DNA of 23,478 nucleotides from a virus. Location of the stretch: IMG/VR virus record IMGVR_UViG_3300025127_000288, positions 1-23,478 of that record. One strand, given 5' to 3'. Shown here one piece after another: positions 2 through 15,639 of this stretch; positions within the stretch are counted from its first letter, which is position 1, and every line of letters begins with the position of its first letter. Below the pieces are notes generated by a model. The model was given only the letters and a program-made list of their open reading frames with translations. It searched no databases and had not been told where the DNA came from. The position numbers were made by a program, and so were the translations under genes.

Positions 2-649
2 AGCTTTTTAGATGGCCTAACTGCATCAGATAAAACTATTGAAGATTTACAAAAACAGTTACAAACTGCAAGAGGAACTAGAGTAGAAAAATTAAAAGAC
101 CAATATAGACAAGATTTAATAAATACTACTACTGGAGCTGCTGCAAAGGCTTTACTTGGTGGTAAAGGTTTTTCTGGTGCATTAATTGAAATATCTGATA
201 GATTAGATACAGTTGAAAATCCTCAAGAAAAAATAGCAATGATTGAGGAGTCTGGTATTATTCAAGATATTAAAGATGTTAAAGATAACAGTCAAAGAAA
301 ACTATCTAGACTTTTAGCTAAGAAACAAATTAGTGATTCTAATTTTAACAGAGGTATTAAGATAGTTGAAGTTGATGCTAAAATTAAACAAAACTTATTA
401 ACAACTCAATTAGCTGGATTAAGTGCTAGTGATGCTGCAATAACTGAAATGAGAAAGTTATTAGAAAATTCTGGAACTTTAGGTATTGATGTTGTAAGCA
501 CTATTTATAATAATACTTTAAAAAATAGAATATTAAGTCCTGAAGTTCAAAAAGAATTTGAAGATTTAATATACAATCTGGTAGCAGGCACAAGCACAGA
601 GGGTGATAAATTAAATACATTTCCAAGAAAGAAAAATAGAAAAGACTAA
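2..649 (+). CDS. C-terminal part of a helical virion-region protein (5' truncated)
   Basis: The reading frame is open from the first bases of the window to the TAA at 647-649, so the first Met in frame (at 239) is not the real start; 215 residues are visible and the N-terminus lies upstream. The visible part is rich in Lys, Glu, Asp and Leu, and looks mostly alpha-helical with coiled-coil-like stretches, apart from a short Gly/Ala segment about 40-55 residues in. The C-terminus is strongly basic (PRKKNRKD). The stop overlaps the next ATG as TAATG, so it is translationally coupled to the large 1266-residue gene. I do not recognise the family. From its position directly before a giant internal-virion-type protein I infer a structural or DNA-ejection component, but no motif proves this. 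Confidence 0.8.
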   Translation, partial: SFLDGLTASDKTIEDLQKQLQTARGTRVEKLKDQYRQDLINTTTGAAAKALLGGKGFSGALIEISDRLDTVENPQEKIAMIEESGIIQDIKDVKDNSQRKLSRLLAKKQISDSNFNRGIKIVEVDAKIKQNLLTTQLAGLSASDAAITEMRKLLENSGTLGIDVVSTIYNNTLKNRILSPEVQKEFEDLIYNLVAGTSTEGDKLNTFPRKKNRKD

Positions 650-3600
650 TGGTGCAAAAAGTAACTTATGAATCTCTACTAAGAGATGATAATTTTTTAA
701 ATGATGCTGCTGATGCCTTAGAGGGTATGGGCGAAACAATTACAAATGATAGACAAGAAGTATTAGATAAGTTTTTACAAAAGAGAAGATACTTTGATAC
801 AAATATATCATCTACATTTACACAAGGTACAAAAATAAAAAGATTATCTGATGAAGATAAAACATCTTATTCAAAAGCATTAGATAAAGTAGACCAACTT
901 CCATCAGCTTTTAGTGAGGGTGGTGCTCCAATGTGGCGAGCTATAGGTGACTATGCTGCTGCTGGTATTACAGACCCAACAAATTTACTATCTGTTATCG
1001 CTGGTGCTTTTACATTAGGCACAGGTGGTGCTGCTGTTCTTGGTGCAAAAGAAGCTGCAAAACAAGGAGTAAAAGCAACAGTAAAAGCAAAGATGAAAGC
1101 TATGACAACGAAACCTGTTCTTGCTTCACTTGCAGTGGAAGGTGGTATTGCAGGTGGTGGAGGTGCTGCTCAACAAGCTCGTTCTCAAAATGTTGATATG
1201 GCATTAGGTAGAAGAGATAAAGGTGATTATGATTATAGCAGCATGGCATTACAAGGTTTAGCAGAAGGTGTAGCAAGTCCTTTAGCTGGTGCAGGTATAA
1301 ATATTATAGGTTCTACCATAGGTGCTGGTGTTAAAAGTGCTGCAAAGGCTACTGGTGTTTCTGATAGTGGTGCAGTACAAGGTGCAAAAAACTGGTTAGA
1401 AAAATGGTTTATGCCTCAAGCTGGTTTAGATAATGCTACCATGAGAAATATAGAAATAGGTGACTCTGCATTTAAAGAAATTAAACAAGATGCTGAAAAA
1501 TTATCAGGAGATATAGAAAGTTTTTTTAGAAGAGATTTTAAAAATGCAACACAAGCAGATATAACATTAATCAATAGAGCTATGGAAGGTGACTTACTAG
1601 CTAAAAATGAAGTAAGAACCAGAAGTGAAGGCCTAGCAAATTCTTTAGATAACTTTACTAACTTAGTAAAAAAAGTTAGAAAAGAAATTGATGACCCAAG
1701 ATTACAAATATCAGATGAACTAAAAACTATATATGGTTTAAAAGAAAATTATGTTAGAGATATATTTGAAAAGTTTACAAAAAGAGGTAGACAAGATTTT
1801 GATATATGGAAAAAAGATGCAACCAATCAAGAAACTATTACAAAGTTTCGTAACTTAGCTTTAACAGATGTAGCACTTGGAAAAAAAATAGGTATTAGAA
1901 ATGAAGCAGGTGCATTAAAAGATTTTGCTGATAAGACAAGTAAAAGTTATAATGAGAATAAATTAAATAGTAATGTTAATTTAGAGCTAAGAAGATTATA
2001 TACACCAAGCATGAGAAAAAATTCAAAGTATGGTGCATTAAAAGCAAAACAAGATTTACCAGATGTTATAAAAGAAATATATGGTCTTAATCAAAATCCA
2101 GCATTACGAGCAACAGAAACTATAGCTGGTATTGTGGAGCCGGTAGCTGATTTAAGAATAGCTGCACAGTTATCTGAGGGATTATTAAACAGAGGAATAG
2201 CTGTAAGAGCAGGAGATGCAGCCACTGCTTCAGAGGCATTAGGTAAAGAGGCAGTTCCTCTTGTAACATCTAAAGCTTCTGCATTAGAAAAAGATTTATA
2301 TTCAAGTACACCTTTTAGAGTTCGTGGTGATATTTATGATACACCATCACAAGAAATATTTATACCAAAAGACTTCGCAGAAAAAATAAAAGTAATGACA
2401 GATAGAACTGGTTTCTTATCTAAAAATGAAGCTCTTGGCCCTTTTGCTCAGGCAATGGCAGCTACACAAGGTTACATTAAAAAAGGTAAAACAGTTTATA
2501 ATCCATTTGCACATATGAGAAATGCATTAGGTGCTCTTATGACTGTTGCTAATTCTGGTAATTATACTGGTATTGGTAAATTAGCTAAGACAATGGTTTT
2601 AAAATCTAAAGAAGATAAAGAAGAATTGTTTAATAAATTAAGAAAACTAGGTGTTCAAGGAACTAACGTAGAATTAAATCAAATCGCAAATAGATTATCA
2701 GACTTTGCAGATATAAGTGAAACAAATACAAAAGGTATTCAAGGTGTTTTAGCTAGAAATGTAGTTCGTTTAGGTTCTTTATTTGTTAGTGACTTAGAAA
2801 AGAAACCTGGTTTTAAAAAGTTTGCTAGAGGAGCAGAAAAAGTATATACAAAAACTGATGACTTTGGTAAAGTTGCTAGTTATCTTAGTGAAAAAGATAA
2901 GTTTCAAAAAGTATTTAATGGTATGTCGCCAGCTCAAAAACGTCTACTAAGAGAAAACTTTGAAAAAGAATATGGATTGCCTATTGATAGTAAAGGTAGA
3001 ACTGTTGTTCCTTTTGATGATAACTTTGATGACTTTATGATAGATGAGATTGCTATTAGTAAAGCATTAAATGTTATGCCTGTATATTCTAGAATACCAA
3101 AAGTATTAGAAAAAATGAGAGGCATACCTATTATTGGTTCTTTTACTGCTTTTCCAGCAGAGAACTTACGTAATAAATATAATGTATTAAAGATGGGTTC
3201 TCAAGAAATTAAAGATGGTTTTGAATTAGGTATAACAAGTAAAGCAGGACAAGAATTAGTAAAGACAGGAGCTAATCGTTTATTATCACAAGGAGCTGTA
3301 GCTGCAGCACCAGCACTAGCTGCTTATGTTTATAATACTACACAAGGCACAGACAAAGTTATGGATTTTATTCGTCAGTCTTTACCAGAGTGGGCAAAAA
3401 ATCATGCATTACAAGTAAGAGAATATACTGATAAAGATGGAGAAAAAAAATATGCTGTTACTGATTTAAGTTATAATAATCCAGACCAGTATGTGTTAGA
3501 TATTATTGGAGAGTTATTAGTAGGTGCAGCAAATGGTGAAGATATTACTAAAAATTTAGATGACAAGATGTTAAGAGTAATTAAAAATACAGCATCTCCT

Positions 3601-4449
3601 TTTGTTGGTGAGTCATTAGTTTTAGATTATGCTAAAAATATGTTAGGATATATAAAAGAAGAAAATGATTTACGTGCAGCAGATAGGTTATTTAAAGCAT
3701 ATAAAATATCAGAACCTGGTGTGATAAAAAATATGAGAGAATTGCTTGGAGATGTAGGTGCATATAAAGCATTAGACGAACTAAGCCAACCTTTAGGAGG
3801 TCAAGCAGGTTCATATTTACAAGATAAATTAGAACCATTATATTATGGTGAAAAAAGAAGTTTGATGAGAGATGCTAGTAGTGTTTCTGCTTACTTATCA
3901 GAGGTGGGTTTAAATTTTACAGGACCATTAGGTATCTTTGGTTTAGCTACAAAAGAAACTAAAGTTGACCCAGTTAAAAATGTATCTTTCGCAGCTAAAA
4001 CATTATTAGGTAATGCTAATAGAAATAATAATATTAATACATCTACTATTAAACAAAGATTAAATAATAGACAAGCAAATTTTTCTTTACAAAATATGAG
4101 AGAATTATATAAAGAAGGTATAGAGGAACAGTTTGTAGCACAAGAAGGTATTTATAAATTATATAATAGTTTATTAGAATTTAAAACACCAGCAGAAGCT
4201 AAAAAAATATTAATGTCTAGACAAGTAAGACAAGCAGGTGGTTTATCTAAACAAGAAATAAATACAATTATTAATGGTAGATTTAAAGCACCAAGATTTG
4301 ACCCAACATTTTGGAATACATTTGGAAAAGAGAATAGAGATTTATCAAAAGAAATACCTAGAATACGTGAAGCATTTGATGGTATTTATCGTAAATATAA
4401 TTTAAAAAAATTATCAACAGAAGTACCGGATATAAGTATAGATGACTAA
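649..4449 (+). CDS. Large internal virion / DNA-ejection-type protein (1266 aa)
   Basis: This is the largest gene in the window. Residues about 95-240 hold several Gly/Ala-rich hydrophobic stretches that could insert into membranes, including the segment starting DPTNLLSVIAGAF. The middle (about 240-480) is charged and helical, residues about 605-650 contain a second conserved-looking block (NPFAHMRNALGALMTVANSG), and another Ala-rich hydrophobic stretch lies near 870-895. Giant proteins of this make-up, placed after tail genes and before lysis genes, are typical of podophage internal core or ejection proteins (functionally like T7 gp15/gp16). I see no clear lytic transglycosylase motif, so a peptidoglycan-cutting role is not supported. 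Start by TAATG coupling to the preceding gene; the stop overlaps a small gene starting at 4442. Function is inferred from size, composition and position. Confidence 0.85.
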   Translation: MVQKVTYESLLRDDNFLNDAADALEGMGETITNDRQEVLDKFLQKRRYFDTNISSTFTQGTKIKRLSDEDKTSYSKALDKVDQLPSAFSEGGAPMWRAIGDYAAAGITDPTNLLSVIAGAFTLGTGGAAVLGAKEAAKQGVKATVKAKMKAMTTKPVLASLAVEGGIAGGGGAAQQARSQNVDMALGRRDKGDYDYSSMALQGLAEGVASPLAGAGINIIGSTIGAGVKSAAKATGVSDSGAVQGAKNWLEKWFMPQAGLDNATMRNIEIGDSAFKEIKQDAEKLSGDIESFFRRDFKNATQADITLINRAMEGDLLAKNEVRTRSEGLANSLDNFTNLVKKVRKEIDDPRLQISDELKTIYGLKENYVRDIFEKFTKRGRQDFDIWKKDATNQETITKFRNLALTDVALGKKIGIRNEAGALKDFADKTSKSYNENKLNSNVNLELRRLYTPSMRKNSKYGALKAKQDLPDVIKEIYGLNQNPALRATETIAGIVEPVADLRIAAQLSEGLLNRGIAVRAGDAATASEALGKEAVPLVTSKASALEKDLYSSTPFRVRGDIYDTPSQEIFIPKDFAEKIKVMTDRTGFLSKNEALGPFAQAMAATQGYIKKGKTVYNPFAHMRNALGALMTVANSGNYTGIGKLAKTMVLKSKEDKEELFNKLRKLGVQGTNVELNQIANRLSDFADISETNTKGIQGVLARNVVRLGSLFVSDLEKKPGFKKFARGAEKVYTKTDDFGKVASYLSEKDKFQKVFNGMSPAQKRLLRENFEKEYGLPIDSKGRTVVPFDDNFDDFMIDEIAISKALNVMPVYSRIPKVLEKMRGIPIIGSFTAFPAENLRNKYNVLKMGSQEIKDGFELGITSKAGQELVKTGANRLLSQGAVAAAPALAAYVYNTTQGTDKVMDFIRQSLPEWAKNHALQVREYTDKDGEKKYAVTDLSYNNPDQYVLDIIGELLVGAANGEDITKNLDDKMLRVIKNTASPFVGESLVLDYAKNMLGYIKEENDLRAADRLFKAYKISEPGVIKNMRELLGDVGAYKALDELSQPLGGQAGSYLQDKLEPLYYGEKRSLMRDASSVSAYLSEVGLNFTGPLGIFGLATKETKVDPVKNVSFAAKTLLGNANRNNNINTSTIKQRLNNRQANFSLQNMRELYKEGIEEQFVAQEGIYKLYNSLLEFKTPAEAKKILMSRQVRQAGGLSKQEINTIINGRFKAPRFDPTFWNTFGKENRDLSKEIPRIREAFDGIYRKYNLKKLSTEVPDISIDD

Positions 4450-5045: not shown

Positions 5046-5924
5046 ATGAATTATATAGAAAAATATTTAGATAATTTTTGGACAATAAATGAAAATGCAC
5101 CATTAGCAGAAGGTAAGATATCTACTAAAGGAGGTGTTATTAAAGAAGGAGATAGTATTGTTGCTGTTCCATTTAAAGCTACTGGTAAGGTTTCTAAAGG
5201 ACAAATGGAAATTGGTTATGGTCATTTAATAACAAGCAATGATAAAGAAAATGGATTTTTAGCAATTACATCTACAGGTGAAAAATATAGAATACCTTAT
5301 TCTGATGATATAAAATTAAGTCAAAAACAAACTAAGGATATAGCAAGAGCAGATATTATTACAAGAGTACCTACAGCAAAGAATAAAATTGCTGCTGCTG
5401 GTGGTAATTATGATGAATTTAATGATGAGAAAAAAATGTTAGCTCTTGACTATGAATTAAATGTAGGAGAAGATAAAAAAGGTAATAGTGGTATTGCAGC
5501 CTTTCCTAATTTTTTTAAAGGTATTATAGAAAATAAACCAGAAATAGCTTTATCAGAGTTTCAAAGAAGTAGTAAAGGTAAATTAATGACAAAGAGAAAT
5601 AATACTACTAAAGAATTAATTTTAGATGCTTTAAATATTCGACAACCAGCAACTATTGCTGAAAAAGAAGAAGAACCAAAAGAAGTAGAGGTAGAGGTAT
5701 CTGAGGTTAAACCAGCAGAAACTTTTAAACAAGCCTTTGCAGCAGCTAGAGGAAATAGAGAAGGTGAGTTTACTTTTGGTGGTAAAAAATATAATACAAG
5801 ATTAAGAGAAGAAACACCACAACAATATGCAGCTTTTTTAGCTGAAAAAAAACCAACTAGATTTGCAAAGAAAGGTGGCATGGTTTACAAAAACTATTAC
5901 GACTACAAACCAAGAAATATATAA
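5046..5924 (+). CDS. Phage lysozyme-like endolysin with C-terminal virion-type motif
   Basis: 292 residues. The N-terminal half (about 1-195) resembles phage lysozyme-type muramidases that cut the glycan strands of peptidoglycan: note KGQMEIGYGHLI at about residues 53-64, matching the GxGH-type core of these enzymes, and a later helical region (about 128-160) typical of the second lobe. I cannot place the catalytic Glu with confidence. A Glu/Val/Pro-rich linker (about 200-225) leads to a C-terminal module (about 226-275) with the pattern FKQAFAAARGN...F.FGGKKYNTR, a short motif often found at the ends of phage virion and tail-associated proteins. This suggests a virion-associated lysozyme that opens the wall at entry, or an endolysin with an extra binding tail. 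No signal peptide. Preceded by GAAAGGG as a ribosome binding site. Confidence 0.75.
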   Translation: MNYIEKYLDNFWTINENAPLAEGKISTKGGVIKEGDSIVAVPFKATGKVSKGQMEIGYGHLITSNDKENGFLAITSTGEKYRIPYSDDIKLSQKQTKDIARADIITRVPTAKNKIAAAGGNYDEFNDEKKMLALDYELNVGEDKKGNSGIAAFPNFFKGIIENKPEIALSEFQRSSKGKLMTKRNNTTKELILDALNIRQPATIAEKEEEPKEVEVEVSEVKPAETFKQAFAAARGNREGEFTFGGKKYNTRLREETPQQYAAFLAEKKPTRFAKKGGMVYKNYYDYKPRNI

Positions 5925-7560: not shown

Positions 7561-8208
7561 CTATTTCCTTTCTATTAATTTCCATTCTGTTAGTGATATT
7601 GGCTTCTCTGCATTCTCATCTTCTAACACATCTAAACTATAATGTATATTTAAATGTGGGTGTTTTTCATGTAGTTTTTTTAGTTTCTCTGTCCAGTGTT
7701 CTGGTGTCTTTATATTCACATGCACATTTCTACCATCTTTAAATGTCTTTAATGCTTTGTAACAAGCAATAGTTAGTAAAACAAACTTTCTAGCATAAGA
7801 AAATATCTCCTCTAAAATCCAGTCAACATCTTTCTCATCTATATGTTCTATAACATCTGTGCATAACACTGCATCATATTTACCTTTTGGTAATTTATTA
7901 TGTTTAGGATATGCTGGGTCATATAAAGCATGATAATCTAGTTGCCATATTTTATGTAAAGGTTTAGGCAGTGTTTGTCCTTTTTTATTTAGTCGCATTG
8001 ATTTATATTTTTCATCATCATACAACAAGGCTTTACCACAACCATAATCTAATACACTTTTAGCACCTTCTTTTAGTATAATATTTGACACTGTATTTAA
8101 GTGTGTTATTAAACAAATACCATTAAAATATTTAGGGTCTTTATGTAACTCTTTATATTCCTCTAATAAATCTACATAATCCTGTGAGGGTTCGGCTCTA
8201 CTGTGCAT
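7561..8208 (-). CDS. Class I SAM-dependent methyltransferase
   Basis: 215 residues with a Rossmann methyltransferase core. Motif I is VLDYGCGKALL at about residues 52-62 (SAM-binding glycine loop), and a motif IV-like segment DAVLCTDVIEHI is at about 112-123, typical of Methyltransf_11/23-like enzymes that act on small molecules or sugars. Two features are unusual: a basic insert between strands 1 and 2 (LNKKGQTLPKPLHK) and a His-rich C-terminal part. The start overlaps the stop of the preceding glycosyltransferase fusion gene by 11 bases, so the two are coupled and probably act on the same product. The substrate cannot be told; modification of a sugar in a surface glycan is the best guess from context. 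A DNA methyltransferase is unlikely because there is no (D/N)PPY motif. Confidence 0.85.
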   Translation of the reverse strand: MHSRAEPSQDYVDLLEEYKELHKDPKYFNGICLITHLNTVSNIILKEGAKSVLDYGCGKALLYDDEKYKSMRLNKKGQTLPKPLHKIWQLDYHALYDPAYPKHNKLPKGKYDAVLCTDVIEHIDEKDVDWILEEIFSYARKFVLLTIACYKALKTFKDGRNVHVNIKTPEHWTEKLKKLHEKHPHLNIHYSLDVLEDENAEKPISLTEWKLIERK

Positions 8209-10501
8209 TTAACATGTCCTTGTAATTAGGTAATGTTTCTTTATTTTGAGCACCTTGCCATATCTCAGATACTAATGTATTCTTACCATAAAAATAATAA
8301 TTAATACCCATAGTTTTATCAGCAAAAGTTTTCTCACAATCTTGTGCCATTGCTAACAACTCACCGGTAGTCCAAAATGCTTTGTCACCAACAGATACTT
8401 GAAAATACTTTGGTCTTTTAGGTTCATCATCAGCACCAGTAGTTTCTTTTTTCATATCATCTGTAGGTTCTTTATCTAATGAACATTCAAAACCAAATAG
8501 ATGCATGTTTCTAAAACCCATAGTATGTAACATACCTATAGCTCTCATAGCTGCACACGTGCCACCAGTAATTAATGTAGCACCTACAGGTAATCCTACA
8601 TCTTCTCTAATCTTTACCTGATTGTTTTTTATTGCATGTTTTCTATCTTCATCATCTCGTAATGATTCTGTAAATGCATGCCATCCCCATATATTAGCTT
8701 TCTTTTCCATTAGATAATTAGTAACAGATGGGTCTGTCATAGATGCAACAAGAAACTTTGTATCTTCATCAAGGTCTTTTAATAAGTCTTTTCTCTTTAC
8801 TCCATGTGTACTTTCACCTTCAATAGAACGTGGGTCTAATAAGATACAAGTATCTGGTTTAATATCATTAGCAATAAGACCAGGATATGCATGCTTAACA
8901 CACATAGTAATAGCTTTTGGATATTTATTTAAAGTATCTTTTAACTCTGCATAATCTATATTAGGTCCACCTGAAATAATTATAGCATGGTCATTATGTG
9001 TTCTACATTTTTGTATAAATTTATTCTTTGGTATTAACTTCATGTTATCTTTTATATTACCACGTATATAATCTTTAGGTACACAGTCTCTAGGATTAAC
9101 TACAATAGGTACTCTTTGTAAATCTGCTGGTATATTAGGTAAATTTTTATCACTTAATACTATCATAAAATGTGTAAATCCACCATCTTTTACTCTATCA
9201 CCAGAGGGTAATACATGTTTACGAATATCTTTATTACCTTTTAATTTTTCCCATATTTTATTAACACCACAATATGCATCATTAGGTGCCATCTTATCAT
9301 CATCTTCTCTGAAGTAATGGTCAAGCATTACAATAGGTGTTTGCTTTACACAATCATAATCATGAGCTACAGTTTTAATACTATTACCACCACCAATAAG
9401 TGCCATATCAAACCAAGCACTTTGGTCTTTTAATATGTCTCTAGTATTACCTTTATTAAGTTCAAATATAAAAGTTTTATTTTTATTTTCTTTCATATGT
9501 TCTGCAAACTCTTCTAGTCTTTGCTTAACTGCAGATAATTTATTATGTGCCTTTGCATTAAACTCTTCATGGTCTGTTTCAATAGTAGCATCTTCAAATA
9601 AATCATAACCATGATAAGTAAATGTATCAGTATAATCAAAAGCAGTTAGTGCCATCTCTATAGCTCTACCACCATTCCATGTACCAGTTTCAATTACAGT
9701 CTTTGGTTTATACTCTTTCATTATCTGAGATATTTGTTGATATCTATTAGGTTTAATATCAGGAGCTACCTCATCTGATAATGGAAAAGCTCTTTCACCA
9801 TTACCTTTTCTTATAGCAACTTTAGAGAAGTCTGGTCTTCCAGCAAAGTGATAAAAATAATCATTCATAGTATTCATAATTTCTACTTTCATACCATGTG
9901 CTTGATAAATATTTAATAGTCTAGAAAATACATAGTAATCATGCCACTCTCTATACTTAATCATCTCACCTAAAATATATGCACCACGTAAATCTGCAAG
10001 TATATCTATAGTAGGTTGCTTATCTAAATTAAATGCCATAAAGAAAGGTTCGTCAGGATTATAAACAATATCAGCTTTATCATTTAACATAGATAACATA
10101 TCTTGTTTAGTTAATCTTTTCTTTAAATAAGAATCTGCATCTATCCATATTAACCACCCTGCCTCTTTACTTTTCTCAGCTAAATTAAATGCCATCTCAG
10201 TTAAGGCAAATACTTTATGTGACCACTTCAAAGCATCTAGCTTTTCATTATATGGTATCTTTCCTTCTTCTGTACCATCATGTTCTGCATATCTTTTTAA
10301 AAACTCTTCATGGTCTTTTATATCGTGTAAACTTTTATATGTATAATCTGGTAAAGAGTAGGCATCTATTTTACAATCATGATAATATCCAGTAAAATTA
10401 ATACTTGTATCTAAATTTTCTTTAACAGAATTTAATAAATGAACTGCTGTATCTTTTAAAATAGTTTCATTAAAAGATGTAACAATATTAATCTCTTTCA
10501 T
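8198..10501 (-). CDS. Three-domain fusion: glycosyltransferase-like, methyltransferase-like, DUF115/MptE-like
   Basis: 767 residues from the ATG at 10501, chosen over the TTG at 10513 because GGAG lies 6 bases before that ATG. Three parts can be seen. Residues about 1-230 look like a nucleotide-sugar glycosyltransferase, with LIWIDADSYL (DxD metal-binding motif at about 121-123). Residues about 262-450 look like a class I methyltransferase: TVIETGTWNGG is the SAM loop and FDMALIGGGNS...VMLDHY resembles the Methyltransf_24 type, with GGGNS in place of the usual DGxHS. Residues about 505-715 look like a DUF115 / MAF_flag10 / MptE-like domain: IIISGGPNID, the pattern KPDTCILLDPR, and GATLITGGTCAAMRA. 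That family includes Maf proteins that attach nonulosonic acids to flagellin. It starts inside the preceding 75-residue gene and overlaps the methyltransferase gene after it. Role inferred: building or capping a glycan. Confidence 0.82.
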   Translation of the reverse strand: MKEINIVTSFNETILKDTAVHLLNSVKENLDTSINFTGYYHDCKIDAYSLPDYTYKSLHDIKDHEEFLKRYAEHDGTEEGKIPYNEKLDALKWSHKVFALTEMAFNLAEKSKEAGWLIWIDADSYLKKRLTKQDMLSMLNDKADIVYNPDEPFFMAFNLDKQPTIDILADLRGAYILGEMIKYREWHDYYVFSRLLNIYQAHGMKVEIMNTMNDYFYHFAGRPDFSKVAIRKGNGERAFPLSDEVAPDIKPNRYQQISQIMKEYKPKTVIETGTWNGGRAIEMALTAFDYTDTFTYHGYDLFEDATIETDHEEFNAKAHNKLSAVKQRLEEFAEHMKENKNKTFIFELNKGNTRDILKDQSAWFDMALIGGGNSIKTVAHDYDCVKQTPIVMLDHYFREDDDKMAPNDAYCGVNKIWEKLKGNKDIRKHVLPSGDRVKDGGFTHFMIVLSDKNLPNIPADLQRVPIVVNPRDCVPKDYIRGNIKDNMKLIPKNKFIQKCRTHNDHAIIISGGPNIDYAELKDTLNKYPKAITMCVKHAYPGLIANDIKPDTCILLDPRSIEGESTHGVKRKDLLKDLDEDTKFLVASMTDPSVTNYLMEKKANIWGWHAFTESLRDDEDRKHAIKNNQVKIREDVGLPVGATLITGGTCAAMRAIGMLHTMGFRNMHLFGFECSLDKEPTDDMKKETTGADDEPKRPKYFQVSVGDKAFWTTGELLAMAQDCEKTFADKTMGINYYFYGKNTLVSEIWQGAQNKETLPNYKDMLNAQ

Positions 10502-10715
10502 TATATGCTCCAAAATTTTTCTCTAATGTTTCTAATGCTTCTTCAGCTTCAGCTAATTGTTTAACTAATACAATAGAATCCTCTACTATCTTTGGATGTT
10601 CTCCTATTGCTACTGGTTTTTGAAATGCTAAATCAAGTTGATATAATGCTTTATTTACTTCAGCTTTATAGTGACATCTCAATGATTTATATAATGTATC
10701 TGTTAATTCTCTCAT
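10488..10715 (-). CDS. Small helical protein of a marine-phage family, 75 aa
   Basis: The start is set at the ATG at 10715, which overlaps the glycosyltransferase stop as ATGA; an in-frame ATG at 10766 would overlap that gene by 55 bases and is less likely. The protein is helical and contains LRCHYKAEVNKALYQLDL, then a central GIGEHP-like element (VAIGEHPKIVED) and a Glu-rich C-terminal helix (AEAEEALETLEKNF). From memory, short proteins with the same order (CHYKAxIxxAKAN..., GIGEHxDI, AxAEExLxxLEKxF) are common in marine T4-like cyanophages, where their function is unknown. It is sandwiched between two glycosyltransferase genes, overlapping both, so it is co-translated with them. Confidence 0.75.
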   Translation of the reverse strand: MRELTDTLYKSLRCHYKAEVNKALYQLDLAFQKPVAIGEHPKIVEDSIVLVKQLAEAEEALETLEKNFGAYNERD

Positions 10716-11506
10716 TGTATTAAGTAATCCTTTTCTCTTGGTATTATTCCTTTCATCTGTAACCATCTAGCATCTTCACACCACTTCACAGCATACTTGC
10801 CTTCAGTTACTCCTCTAGGTTTCCATTTAGCAAACCAAGGCCCACCAGTTGTAAAGTGTACAATCTTTGGTTTCATATCTTCTGGTGAGTGCCCATCAAG
10901 CCAGTTCCATTCTTCAGGTATTTGTCCTATGTCTGATTCCTGGTCAGGCAACCACTTAAATGTATGTAACCATCTACCTTTCTCTGTATTAATAGCATCA
11001 ATACTTAACTTGTCTAGATAGTGATGTTCATTATTAAACATCATAAGGCTAGACCAGTTCTTCATACTATAAGGTTCTTGTGCTTGGCCATCCATTTTAA
11101 TACCTTTTTCTACATCATACTTATGATGCACTGCCCATACAGGATAATAATTATCTCTACACATATCAAATAGTTCTGTTATATCTCCATAACAATACAT
11201 ATCACAATCCATATATAAAGATAAACCGGTATATAAACTTAAATGTGGCACAAGAAATCTAGTAAAACTAAAATCAGTAGAGAAAGGTCTACCATCTATC
11301 TCATCATACTGTTGATTACCTATACTGTTTGACTTTCTTCTGAACATTCCATTTTTAATTAATGCATCTTTTTTTAGAGGCACAATTCTTACAGGATTCT
11401 TAGCTCTTATTTCTATAGAGAACTTTAAAACTTCATAAGCTGCATGTTCTCTAGGGTCATAGCCTATGTATACTGTATCCATATCATTTCTAATTTTTGT
11501 ATTCAT
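10712..11506 (-). CDS. Glycosyltransferase, GT8-like, 264 aa
   Basis: The N-terminal DTVYIGYDPREHAAYEV is the usual first strand and helix of GT-A enzymes. SLYMDCDMYCYGD (about residues 96-108) carries the DxD metal- and sugar-nucleotide-binding motif (D100, D102). Near the C-terminus KIVHFTTGGPWF gives the His-containing metal ligand motif of GT8-like retaining transferases. It would move a sugar from a nucleotide-sugar donor onto a phage-directed or host acceptor. Ribosome binding site GGAAG lies 7 bases before the ATG. It is the first of four overlapping genes with two glycosyltransferase domains and two methyltransferase domains, which suggests a glycan-modifying operon. Donor and acceptor are unknown. 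Confidence 0.85.
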   Translation of the reverse strand: MNTKIRNDMDTVYIGYDPREHAAYEVLKFSIEIRAKNPVRIVPLKKDALIKNGMFRRKSNSIGNQQYDEIDGRPFSTDFSFTRFLVPHLSLYTGLSLYMDCDMYCYGDITELFDMCRDNYYPVWAVHHKYDVEKGIKMDGQAQEPYSMKNWSSLMMFNNEHHYLDKLSIDAINTEKGRWLHTFKWLPDQESDIGQIPEEWNWLDGHSPEDMKPKIVHFTTGGPWFAKWKPRGVTEGKYAVKWCEDARWLQMKGIIPREKDYLIQ

Positions 11507-11947: not shown

Positions 11948-12313
11948 TCATATGTTCATTTTTTTATAAAATTCAAGTCTTTCTTGTGAAGTTTGTAAAT
12001 CATTTACACCTTTTATAATTTCACATATTGTTTTATGTGATTTATATTTTACATTTTTAGTAGGGAGATTATCTTTTACTTTAATTCCTTTTGTTTTAAA
12101 TATTTCTTTTTCATATCTAGCACGATAATGTCTATGTAATTCAGGACATTCTTCTACCGGTTCATTATTTTCTTCCATAATTTTATACACTTCATTGTCT
12201 AAAAAAGCATACTTTTCTATTTCTTTTAATGATAGCTTGTCATTTGATTGAACAATTATATCTCTTTCTGTTATGTGTGTATCTAAAATTGTTACTTTAT
12301 ATTGTTTATACAT
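11948..12313 (-). CDS. Hypothetical protein, 121 aa
   Basis: Soluble charged protein. The first 60 residues look like alternating strands and helices (YKQYKVTILDTHITERDIIV), with a Glu/Asn-rich stretch EENNEPVEECPELHRHY in the middle; the C-terminal half is Lys-rich and helical. Cysteines at about 58 and 97 show no zinc-binding pattern. The ATG follows AAAGGA and lies 14 bases after the RNR stop, so it is probably co-transcribed with RNR. The family is not recognised and no function can be assigned. Confidence 0.75.
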   Translation of the reverse strand: MYKQYKVTILDTHITERDIIVQSNDKLSLKEIEKYAFLDNEVYKIMEENNEPVEECPELHRHYRARYEKEIFKTKGIKVKDNLPTKNVKYKSHKTICEIIKGVNDLQTSQERLEFYKKMNI

Positions 12314-12327
12314 TTTTTCCTTTCCAA

Positions 12328-14250
12328 TTATATATCTACTAATTCACAGGAGCCTGCAGTACATGCTAATTCTTGCGAGCCTCTAGTGTTATCTTCTTTT
12401 TCAAAGTCTTGTAACTTTGCCCAATCTATTTTTTCAGGCATCTTTGATTGTAAAGAAGTATACTGCTCTTTATCTATATCTTGATAAGGTGCTTGCTGAT
12501 ATGTGTGGTCAGAGAAAGGTAAGAAAGATACACCAGAAAGATAATCAAAATTATCCCAACACCAATTACCTACATTCACCCACTCATTTTCTTTTACAGA
12601 TATAGTTACAGATGGTTTATGTTCACACCAATGCTGTGCATAACACTTCCATATCTCTAACTGCTCGATTGCTGCCATATCATTTCTATACACAGCAGTA
12701 TCAGAACAACGCATAGGAAAAGAAAACACTGTAGTATGGTCAGGCTTCATTACATCTGGTTCATTTGGTATACCTTGTTCTTTCATAAACTCTGTTAGTG
12801 GGTCTTTATTATCACCTCTAACTGTACGAATATAATAAGGATTATGTCTAGCATGAATACCACTAGCAGAGTCAACTAATTGACTAACTGTACCAGAAGG
12901 TTTGACACATGTAATAGCTGTTGATTGTGGTATACCTAATTTATCTGCCCACTCTTTATTTGTTACAACAGCTTTGTTTCTCATACTTTGTAATATCTCT
13001 GGTAGTTTTGCTCTTTGTCTATTGATAATAGAATTATCCATAATACCTGTAAGAGATACACCTAATAATCTTTCCTCTTCTGTGTTCTGTTGCCATCTCT
13101 TTCTTAGATATCCAAAGTCTGTAAGTGTAGCTTGTATTGTACCTAGTATTGTAGCCACTTCTATTTTATCATGTAGTGTAGCTTCAGTATCCATAGGTCT
13201 TACAACTACCTCTGTAAGATTACAAAACTGATTAGGTCTTAGTATTATTTCACTACAAGGATTAGTACCAAAAGGATGGTCACCATTACGTCTACCATTC
13301 TCTCTAGCTTTTTCTTGTGCTGATACTCTGTTGAATATACCTCTTTCGCCAGACTTACTTTCATATAAGGCCAACCACTCCTTCATAAAAATACCTGCAT
13401 CAGGCTTTTCAGTATATACAACAGAGTTATTTGCTAATGCTCTTTCAGGATTTGTATCCCACCAGGCACCAGACTTTGCAACTCTTAATCTTTGGTCTGA
13501 TAAATTACTCAAAGATATAAGAGCAGACCTACGCACACCACCTACAACAACAACTTCACCAGTCTTACACGCAATATCATGACACTCCATAGTGTTTAAT
13601 TTTCTACCTCTAGCACCTTTAAACTTTTCAATAACAAAATCAAATAAATTAATTAAAGGTTGAGGCCCACTAGCTCTACCACCAAATGTTTTTAATCTTT
13701 GTCCAGCAGGTCTTATTTTAGTTACATCTATTTTTGGTATTCTATTTGTATATAGATAAGATATTAAATCTTTAAATCCTCTTGCCCATCCTTCTTTAGA
13801 ATCAGCAACAGCTACAACATCATCTGTCTTTTCAAATTCTCTGTCTGGTATAGTAGGAAGTTTGTTTACATTTTCTCTCTCAACAGAAAAACCTACACCT
13901 GTACCATTCATTAAGATATAAAGTATTTCATCAAATGCTTTTGGATTATCAATAGGAATATAGGAACAGTTATATCCAGCAATGTTTTCTCTTTCTAATG
14001 CTGTGCCTGCAGTCATCAATGCTCTCATAGAAGGCATTACAGAAAGTCCAGTAATATAATCTTCTATCTTTCTCCATGTCTCACTTTCTATTTCTACATT
14101 TAAATTTTTCTTTAAATGATACTGCATAAAGTTTGTTAATCTTGTTACTGTTTCTATCCATGTCTCTCTTCTACCTTCATCAGGCAACCATCTAGAATAT
14201 CTAGATAGGTGTATAAAACTTTGGTATTCGGTTGGTAAATAGTTATTCAT
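12328..14250 (-). CDS. nrdJ: Class II (adenosylcobalamin-dependent) ribonucleotide reductase, monomeric type
   Basis: 640 residues. Reduces ribonucleotides to deoxyribonucleotides to feed phage DNA synthesis. The key residues known from the Lactobacillus leichmannii triphosphate reductase can be placed: the first active-site Cys in GYNCSYIP (C95); the thiyl-radical block NPCSEIILRPNQFC with N330, C332, E334 and the second active-site Cys C343 (same 11-residue spacing as C408-C419); and the C-terminal redox pair CTAGSC (C630, C635), spaced as C731-C736. The N-terminus (WLPDEGRRETW) is also typical of the monomeric family. At 640 it is about 100 residues shorter than the 739-residue bacterial enzyme. 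It has no intein. ATG overlaps the preceding stop by 8 bases, with GGAG 7 bases upstream. The host must supply or import cobalamin. The glutaredoxin at 22789-23151 is a likely electron donor. Confidence 0.95.
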   Translation of the reverse strand: MNNYLPTEYQSFIHLSRYSRWLPDEGRRETWIETVTRLTNFMQYHLKKNLNVEIESETWRKIEDYITGLSVMPSMRALMTAGTALERENIAGYNCSYIPIDNPKAFDEILYILMNGTGVGFSVERENVNKLPTIPDREFEKTDDVVAVADSKEGWARGFKDLISYLYTNRIPKIDVTKIRPAGQRLKTFGGRASGPQPLINLFDFVIEKFKGARGRKLNTMECHDIACKTGEVVVVGGVRRSALISLSNLSDQRLRVAKSGAWWDTNPERALANNSVVYTEKPDAGIFMKEWLALYESKSGERGIFNRVSAQEKARENGRRNGDHPFGTNPCSEIILRPNQFCNLTEVVVRPMDTEATLHDKIEVATILGTIQATLTDFGYLRKRWQQNTEEERLLGVSLTGIMDNSIINRQRAKLPEILQSMRNKAVVTNKEWADKLGIPQSTAITCVKPSGTVSQLVDSASGIHARHNPYYIRTVRGDNKDPLTEFMKEQGIPNEPDVMKPDHTTVFSFPMRCSDTAVYRNDMAAIEQLEIWKCYAQHWCEHKPSVTISVKENEWVNVGNWCWDNFDYLSGVSFLPFSDHTYQQAPYQDIDKEQYTSLQSKMPEKIDWAKLQDFEKEDNTRGSQELACTAGSCELVDI

Positions 14251-14623: not shown

Positions 14624-14951
14624 CTTCACCTCTTAACACACTTCTAATTCTATTTCTTAAATACTTATTGTTTTTTGTATTAATAACTTTGTATGCGAAT
14701 GACCTGGTTTTATTTGAATCTACTCCGGCCATGTCGCATACTGTATTAAAATTTTCACATGTTACTCCTACGTCTGCAAAGAACCATGCCTCTGCTTTTT
14801 GTCTATTTACTTTATCATATGTTGTGATAGGTTTTTTAGATACATCTAACAATGCTTGTAATATCACAGCAATAAATAATCTCTTCTCTGAATTGTAAGG
14901 TTCAGAATAAAAAGCATTTTCAATTTGTATTATGTCATGTTCTTTTTTCAT
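14616..14951 (-). CDS. Hypothetical protein, 111 aa, phage/alphaproteobacterial family
   Basis: Contains [19 protein letters not shown] (about 22-40), [10 protein letters not shown] and [11 protein letters not shown] (about 68-78), then a basic C-terminus. From memory, the order 'RLF.AV..QAL.D', 'A..WF', 'F..VC..AG.D' is seen in a small uncharacterised family of phages and Rhizobiales-type bacteria, in which the middle part looks like a helix-turn-helix. Its start lies 17 bases inside the end of the GIY-YIG gene and lacks a well-spaced ribosome binding site, so it probably relies on coupling. Function unknown; DNA binding is possible. Confidence 0.75.
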
Positions 14952-15639
14952 TATCTAAATATTTTTTTCCTTTACGAGCTTCACTAATTTTTCTTTTAGT
15001 TTCTTCTGTAAGTTTTTTTCCTGATTGAGCTTTACTCATTTTTCTTTTAGTTTCTTCTGTTACAATTTTTCCTTTATGAAATTCACCAATTTTTCTTTTA
15101 GCTTCTTCTGTATGTTTTTTATTATACATACTATTGTTTTCTCCTAATTGAGCTTCACTTATTTTTCTTTTAGTTTCCTCTGTAAGTTTTTTTCCTGAGT
15201 GAGCTTCACTAATGTTTCTTTTAGTTTCTTCTGTATGTTTTTTTCCTATACGAGCTTCACTAATTTTTCTTTTATGAGATTCTGTAAATTTTTTTCCTAA
15301 TAAAGTTTCACTTATTTTTCTTTTAGTTTCTTCTGTATGAGGTTTGTAATCTTCAGGAGGTCTATAAAACTTACCATTAATACTAGCATTGTAATACCTA
15401 TCCCAACATTTTTCTTTTCTATTAAACAGAAGTTTAGTTTCTAATTCATACATATCTTTATCTGAACCATATATAAGAACTCTTCTTTTTACTCCCTCTG
15501 GTACAGAATCACTACTAAACTTTTGCCACCTATTAGAAGAATGAGTATACCCATCATCAGGTGTCCCTTTATGTTTACCTAAATAAAACATTTTATTTCT
15601 TGAGTCATACCAAAGATAAACAAAAGATTCTTTGTTCAT
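14935..15639 (-). CDS. GIY-YIG homing-type endonuclease with seven NUMOD3 repeats
   Basis: 234 residues. Residues about 6-85 are a GIY-YIG nuclease of the subfamily with 'YLW...FYLGKHKG': VYLWYDSR at 7-14, [14 protein letters not shown] at 18-31, and YELETKLL (64-71) with the candidate catalytic Glu. Residues 101-226 are seven tandem copies of the NUMOD3 DNA-binding motif (consensus [16 protein letters not shown], 17 residues each; the fourth has a 7-residue insert). Free-standing proteins of this type cut a specific DNA site and spread themselves into related genomes, often next to replication genes as here. It overlaps the exonuclease stop by 4 bases (ATGA) and the next gene by 17 bases, unusually tight for a mobile gene. 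No intron or intein border was seen. Confidence 0.9.
14962..15339 (-). repeat. Tandem 51-bp coding repeat (7 units, NUMOD3)
   Basis: Seven in-frame units of 51 bp (one of 72 bp) inside the GIY-YIG gene; the shared stretch encodes TEETKRKIS. Units differ by several bases, so the array is old or under amino-acid-level selection. It is not a CRISPR: there are no unrelated spacers and the frame is kept throughout. Confidence 0.9.

Follow-up and report, generated by a model that had tools for sequence, protein, structure and literature searches.

A Maf-like core joined to a GT-A domain in a marine phage gene block predicted to build and O-methylate a glycan

Maf proteins consist of a degenerate methyltransferase-like Rossmann domain, a PF01973 domain that resembles the sialyltransferase Cst-II, and a helical C-terminus (PMC11339370). 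Among viruses, chlorovirus PBCV-1 encodes the three-domain protein A064R (glycosyltransferase, glycosyltransferase, methyltransferase), which together with the separate methyltransferase A061L builds the O-methylated glycan of a capsid protein (PMC9614988). Enzymes of the DUF115/Maf type, which transfer sugar to Ser/Thr residues of flagellin, have been described in cells and are not known from phages: in the open-access literature we found no paper linking DUF115 or MptE-like proteins with phage glycosylation, and phage-encoded protein glycosylation is itself little studied. Here we analysed a 23,478-base virus record from IMG/VR (IMGVR_UViG_3300025127_000288; the whole stretch is referred to as the window), which encodes a 767-residue fusion of a glycosyltransferase domain (D1), a methyltransferase domain (D2) and a DUF115/MptE-like domain (D3), accompanied by separate genes for a second glycosyltransferase (GT264) and a second methyltransferase (MT215).

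The gene layout and setting given in an earlier note on this DNA proved correct. Four overlapping genes on the minus strand lie between a ribonucleotide reductase (RNR) gene upstream and genes for a gene transfer agent (GTA)-type holin and a terminase small subunit downstream. Their features are as follows:

10712-11506, minus strand: GT264, 264 residues, GT8-like GT-A glycosyltransferase gene, phrog_28018
10488-10715, minus strand: small gene, 75 residues, phrog_1811 of unknown function (1.3e-10)
8198-10501, minus strand: triple-fusion protein D1-D2-D3, 767 residues (771 from an upstream TTG)
9767-10501, minus strand: D1, residues 1-245, GT-A-fold glycosyltransferase domain
10133-10141, minus strand: DxD motif of D1, residues 121-123
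9116-9766, minus strand: D2, residues 246-462, class I S-adenosylmethionine (SAM) methyltransferase domain of COMT/Methyltransf_24 type
9383-9394, minus strand: degenerate catalytic/metal motif in D2, G370-G-G-N373 in place of D-G-G-H
8201-9115, minus strand: D3, residues 463-767, DUF115/MptE-like domain with Maf/MptE fold
7561-8208, minus strand: MT215, 215 residues, separate class I SAM methyltransferase, phrog_24759 (1.7e-21)

The overlaps between GT264 and the small gene, the small gene and the fusion, and the fusion and MT215 are 4, 14 and 11 bases, suggesting translational coupling of the four genes. The small gene has 75 residues when read from an ATG that overlaps the GT264 stop codon as ATGA, and 92 from an ATG further upstream.

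To characterise the fusion we modelled it with AlphaFold using 34 diverse homologues (mean predicted local distance difference test score, pLDDT, 83.8; predicted template modelling score, pTM, 0.52); in this model we consider the predicted individual domains reliable but not their relative placement. An earlier model, based on 15 close relatives, reached a pLDDT of just 57.4 and was set aside as poor. Fold comparison gave matches running along the chain in the order glycogenin, O-methyltransferases, and MptE together with Maf. D1 matched glycogenin (6eql; Z 14.5, residues 3-240, 195 aligned, root-mean-square deviation (rmsd) 3.5) and further alpha-1,3-GalT and LARGE1, so that the GT-A fold expected for the N-terminal part was found. 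As none of 25 fusions matched Glyco_transf_8, D1 was filed as GT-A and not as GT8. D2 matched many O-methyltransferases of COMT type (Z about 15, residues 224-453), and of 25 diverse homologues 16 had a Methyltransf_24 match, the best at 1.6e-9. D3 is PF01973 (1.9e-17, 64 bits against a cut-off of 34.6), a family found in 25/25 homologues. Sequence and profile searches (phmmer) with the whole fusion and with D1 alone against PDB sequences returned nothing useful, and D2 of the clade with an intact motif (see below) returned just a chance tubulin match.

The best overall fold match was Maf (5mu5), which covered D2 and D3 together (residues 224-749, Z 18.8, 354 aligned, rmsd 14.4 across domains). 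Because Maf too has a methyltransferase-like domain before PF01973, D2 and D3 are the counterparts of its first two domains, and the fusion is a Maf-like core to which a GT-A domain has been added. The earlier note had both recognised the DUF115 part and pointed to flagellin-glycosylating Maf proteins among its relatives, and each point agrees with these matches. The same D3 fold also resembles MptE, an ATP-dependent 6-hydroxymethylpterin pyrophosphokinase for which PF01973 is named (Methanocaldococcus HPPK, MjHPPK, 8sd5; Z 15.0, residues 469-739), which raises the alternative that D3 is a small-molecule pyrophosphokinase and that the product of the block is a cofactor, such as a modified pterin, instead of a protein glycan. 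We consider this very unlikely, since the Maf match is the higher one and extends over two domains, two GT-A-type enzymes accompany D3 in every assessable locus, and neither the window nor the 25 Pfam families listed for a near-complete relative included a recognised pterin gene.

The fusion is widespread among marine viruses. Scans of IMG/VR with progressively wider alignments recovered 225 fusions including duplicate contigs, corresponding to at least 177 distinct full-length genes, and every one listed has the order D1-D2-D3. Since the same order recurs in 177 distinct genes, the fusion is neither a chance event nor an assembly artefact, although the frame is broken in a few contigs (for example L036 and L049). 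The D-x-D of D1 is kept in 177/177 genes listed, and mean column identity is higher for D3 (68%) than for D1 (57%). In all 173 assessable loci the gene immediately upstream of the fusion is GT264. The recurrent order is RNR, (2-oxoglutarate (2OG)-Fe(II) oxygenase), (Hsp20), GT264, (75-residue gene), fusion, (MT215), (holin), terminase small subunit, with the bracketed genes not always present, and it survives the exchange of RNR for a very different one: the RNR of L056 (2283-4046) occupies the same gene position as that of the window (12328-14250) and shares 22-27% identity with it, GT264 and the fusion being retained. The 75-residue gene is not always found between GT264 and the fusion, its homologue sitting elsewhere in L033 and L043. 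That the fusion and its partner glycosyltransferase are retained in marine viruses of such number and diversity points to sustained selection. A search of 84,980 genomes for a cellular version gave one match, a phage contig of the group binned in a metagenome-assembled genome of Sneathiella (L117, PAKP01000072.1), which is a weak hint of an alphaproteobacterial host.

A further variation concerns the methyltransferase step. The METHYLTRANSFERASE switch divides the fusions in two: the D2 motif reads I-D-G-G-H-S in most relatives (D-type) and I-G-G-G-N-S in the window's clade (G-type), in which all variants are altered from D-G-G-H, to G-G-G-N, G-S-G-N or G-G-G-D. The Asp and His of D-x-x-H are thus absent from the window and from G-type D2, and are kept in the D-type clade. 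They are also kept in a two-domain paralogue of the 59.6-kb relative G003, which carries a full fusion plus a 455-residue gene with D1 and D2 only (GT-A and methyltransferase, no DUF115; positions 11398-12765 of L119, 31398-32765 of G003). Judging from their position in the motif, the Asp would bind the metal and the His would stand at the catalytic position, as in COMT-type enzymes (D141 and K144 in COMT). The methyltransferase assignment that the earlier note had given the middle part therefore stands for domain and fold, but the window's copy has lost the catalytic motif residues expected of it. In parallel, MT215 was found downstream of the fusion in 61 of 61 G-type loci and in none of 96 D-type loci, counting distinct genes with enough downstream sequence. 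A single fully supported branch (100/100) separates the two types in the tree, so this association represents one deep evolutionary event and not repeated evidence.

In the simplest reading, MT215 took over methyl transfer from D2 in the G-type clade. Similarity between D2 and MT215 was limited to the SAM motif, with homology beyond it not demonstrable, and so nothing pointed to MT215 having been copied from D2. In G-type D2 the acidic residue D300 and the ExGxWN(G/A)GR motif of the SAM site are still conserved; the domain may therefore go on serving in binding or as a structural element, which may equally be true of the degenerate Maf domain. One could go further and regard D2, perhaps with D3, as a non-catalytic scaffold in the window's clade, leaving only GT264, D1 and MT215 active. 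The loss of D-G-G-H in all G-type members and the likewise degenerate N-terminal domain of Maf (PMC11339370) fit such a scaffold, whereas the conserved SAM-site residues argue for retained SAM or ligand binding and D3 is better conserved than D1; we find the proposal rather doubtful as a whole. It is compatible with our preferred explanation, given below, for D2 and not for D3. The two clades, one with the methyltransferase site intact and one without, and with the separate gene distributed to match, offer a ready test of the domain roles.

The GT8-like character proposed for the gene upstream was confirmed by profile, 16 of 17 diverse GT264 members matching Glyco_transf_8 (best 3.7e-6). We retain the term GT8-like because the window's copy taken alone (0.0027) falls below the curated cut-off. 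MDxDM and HFTTGGP are invariant in GT264, and its homology with D1 was not demonstrable from sequence. Outside this group, GT264 homologues adjoin tail or capsid genes in Caulobacter phage CcrColossus and podovirus ctDrO704. A CcrColossus protein annotated as 'sialyltransferase' was also considered and rejected, being at best a weak DUF115-like match.

Taking these results together, we propose that the block would act as a compact soluble (cytoplasmic) module for glycan assembly and O-methylation. The DUF115 domain, coupled to a methyltransferase-like domain as in Maf, would be the transferase onto a protein or glycan acceptor, and D1 and GT264 would add further sugars from host sugar nucleotides. 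A SAM methyltransferase would then cap the glycan by O-methylation, D2 in the D-type clade and the separate MT215 in the window's clade, where the fused D2 has lost its catalytic residues. The acceptor would most likely be a protein of the phage virion, modified while still in the cytoplasm and not yet assembled. We prefer a virion protein because some GT264 relatives sit among capsid and tail genes elsewhere and because the closest functional analogue, A064R with A061L, glycosylates a capsid protein; this target is nevertheless the weakest step. We give this explanation as a whole, with its virion target, an even chance of being right.

Its main rival keeps the same enzymes and changes the acceptor to a host surface glycan or protein (lipopolysaccharide, capsule, flagellin or pilin), so that the phage would alter its own receptor against superinfection or re-adsorption of progeny. 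Serotype-conversion glycosyltransferases are usually accompanied by a membrane flippase (GtrA) and a membrane glycosyltransferase, and we recognised neither in the block; moreover, some GT264 and D1 relatives in other phages lie among structural genes. On the other side, phage glycosyltransferases for serotype conversion are well known (also in PMC8024684), the native target of Maf is flagellin (PMC11339370), and the block shares its transcription with the replication genes, ahead of the lysis genes. A host surface target is thus a real possibility, but a clearly lesser one than the virion.

The earlier note had left the target open between host polymer, virion protein, and base or nucleotide. 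The last of these is the least supported of the three. Hypermodification of phage DNA or nucleotides by glycosylated or methylated bases would fit a block adjoining RNR and replication genes, and phage DNA glycosyltransferases exist, as in T4 and reportedly in Shewanella phage Thanatos. However, D1 resembles glycogenin and alpha-1,3-GalT and not DNA glycosyltransferases, the window's copy is not accompanied by any recognised base-hydroxylating enzyme, we know of no Maf- or COMT-type partners in DNA pathways, and a gene of the thymidylate synthase/dCMP hydroxymethylase type (PF00303) was absent from 10 long relatives. A gene that may supply a sugar donor was found in one sister lineage. In 9 of 11 contigs searched of the L056-L069 lineage, a GDP-mannose 4,6-dehydratase gene (PF16363, 458 bits) lies in the replication operon between the genes for a single-stranded DNA-binding protein (SSB) and a Cas4-type exonuclease (one match is cut by the contig end), and the two contigs without it begin downstream of its position. 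Examples from this sister lineage are L057 1106-2137, L061 628-1680 and G009 34083-35075; the gene was not found in the other nine of the ten long relatives. The dehydratase in one lineage and the lack of a thymidylate synthase/hydroxymethylase gene together favour a glycan over DNA modification, which we regard as highly improbable. In the sister lineage the donor may be partly phage-made, as a GDP-6-deoxyhexose, and for the window's clade the gene content leads us to favour host-derived donors.

Several points weigh against the proposed glycan module and its virion target. The block sits in the replication operon and not in the structural operon, no virion protein is singled out as acceptor, and neither a CMP-sugar synthetase (CTP_transf_3) nor an NTP_transferase gene was found in the 10 long relatives. 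DUF115 proteins can also be pterin pyrophosphokinases. The association of motif and MT215 represents a single event, so the replacement of the methylation step, though plausible, is not independently repeated, and the functional case is built from sequence and predicted structure. More tentatively than the module itself, we suggest that a large marine podovirus lineage may have its own Maf-like protein O-glycosylation, in which a GT-A domain on a Maf-like core with GT8-like and methyltransferase partners would place a methylated glycan on a virion protein, the methylation step having moved once from a fused domain to a separate gene. If virions are glycosylated, this would bear on host binding or degradation resistance of abundant marine phages.

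With regard to the wider locus, the window carries genes for helicase/primase, PolA, SSB, a Cas4-type exonuclease, class II RNR and thioredoxin. These replication genes, together with an RNR 64% identical to the HMO-2011 type, place the window by sequence near HMO-2011-type podoviruses. Promoter and terminator scans gave chance level only. Many D-type loci (65, duplicates included) have the 2OG-Fe(II) oxygenase gene (PF13640, 3e-13; for example L057 5903-6499) upstream of GT264, and its product could hydroxylate a residue or sugar ahead of glycosylation. Many relatives encode an Hsp20 small heat-shock protein immediately upstream of GT264 (L033 6760-7161, L061 6104-6562, L075 6734-7159), in a region where the window has a 121-residue open reading frame without Pfam match (11948-12313). 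A ThyX gene (PF02511) lies near the block in one subclade (L102 5809-6498, L110 5860-6576). Between the exonuclease gene and a 111-residue gene, the window has a homing-endonuclease-like gene (14935-15639, phrog_314) that is present only in some relatives. The 1266-residue virion protein at 649-4449 is likely an exchanged host-range part, as its identity falls to about 40% in several relatives in which the genes around it are 80-100% identical. Similarly, close relatives have proteins of 283-454 residues without BLAST match in the place of the 292-residue lysozyme-like protein at 5046-5924.

Finally, we compared the block with described systems. The earlier note knew of no phage system with this domain order, and this held for open-access papers and for 50,697 phage records (INPHARED, including tblastn with the window protein), none of which contains the fusion; unnamed metagenome copies are nevertheless common, and there is at least one uncharacterised UniProt entry. 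This entry (A0A6J7X5Q0, 714 residues, uncultured Caudovirales phage) has a predicted structure that matches the fusion almost full-length at 26% identity, but is more distant and annotated only as 'Methyltransferase domain containing protein'. Puniceispirillum phage HMO-2011 shares the replication genes and RNR, but its slot holds MazG and hypothetical genes with no glycosyltransferase or DUF115 annotated, and the words 'glycosyl' and 'methyltransferase' are absent from the text of a 2022 survey of HMO-2011-type phages (PMC9038755). When separate homologues were sought in isolated-phage loci, none was found for D2 or D3, and D1 alone was found in Pelagibacter phage Mosig EXVC030M, as the stand-alone gene Mosig_00189 (hhalign 1.5e-17) directly upstream of a GT264 homologue (38.9% identity). 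The surrounding cluster (Mosig_00186-00191) also has two methyltransferases and a sulfotransferase; unlike in the window, the genes are not fused, the methyltransferases did not match D2 convincingly, and no DUF115 homologue was found in the fetched region. Magnetospirillum Maf shares the fold and order of D2 and D3, but has neither the N-terminal GT-A domain nor the phage location, and D-type fusions keep the full methyltransferase motif. Alignment with Maf stops at its chain residue 502, with the C-terminal helical part beyond, and D3, ending at residue 767, is the last part of the fusion, although absence from an alignment is not proof of absence; the CTP_transf_3 gene missing from the long viral relatives belongs to the nonulosonic-acid (CMP-sugar) pathway. 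A064R belongs to a eukaryotic algal virus, lacks DUF115 and has the order GT-GT-MT instead of GT-A, methyltransferase, DUF115; the likeness is put forward as one of function. As a virus-encoded three-domain glycosyltransferase/methyltransferase protein with a separate methyltransferase, it is by analogy the closest functional counterpart of the phage fusion. The parts of the block are therefore of known kinds, and their combination, their spread and the motif switch appear, to us, to be new.

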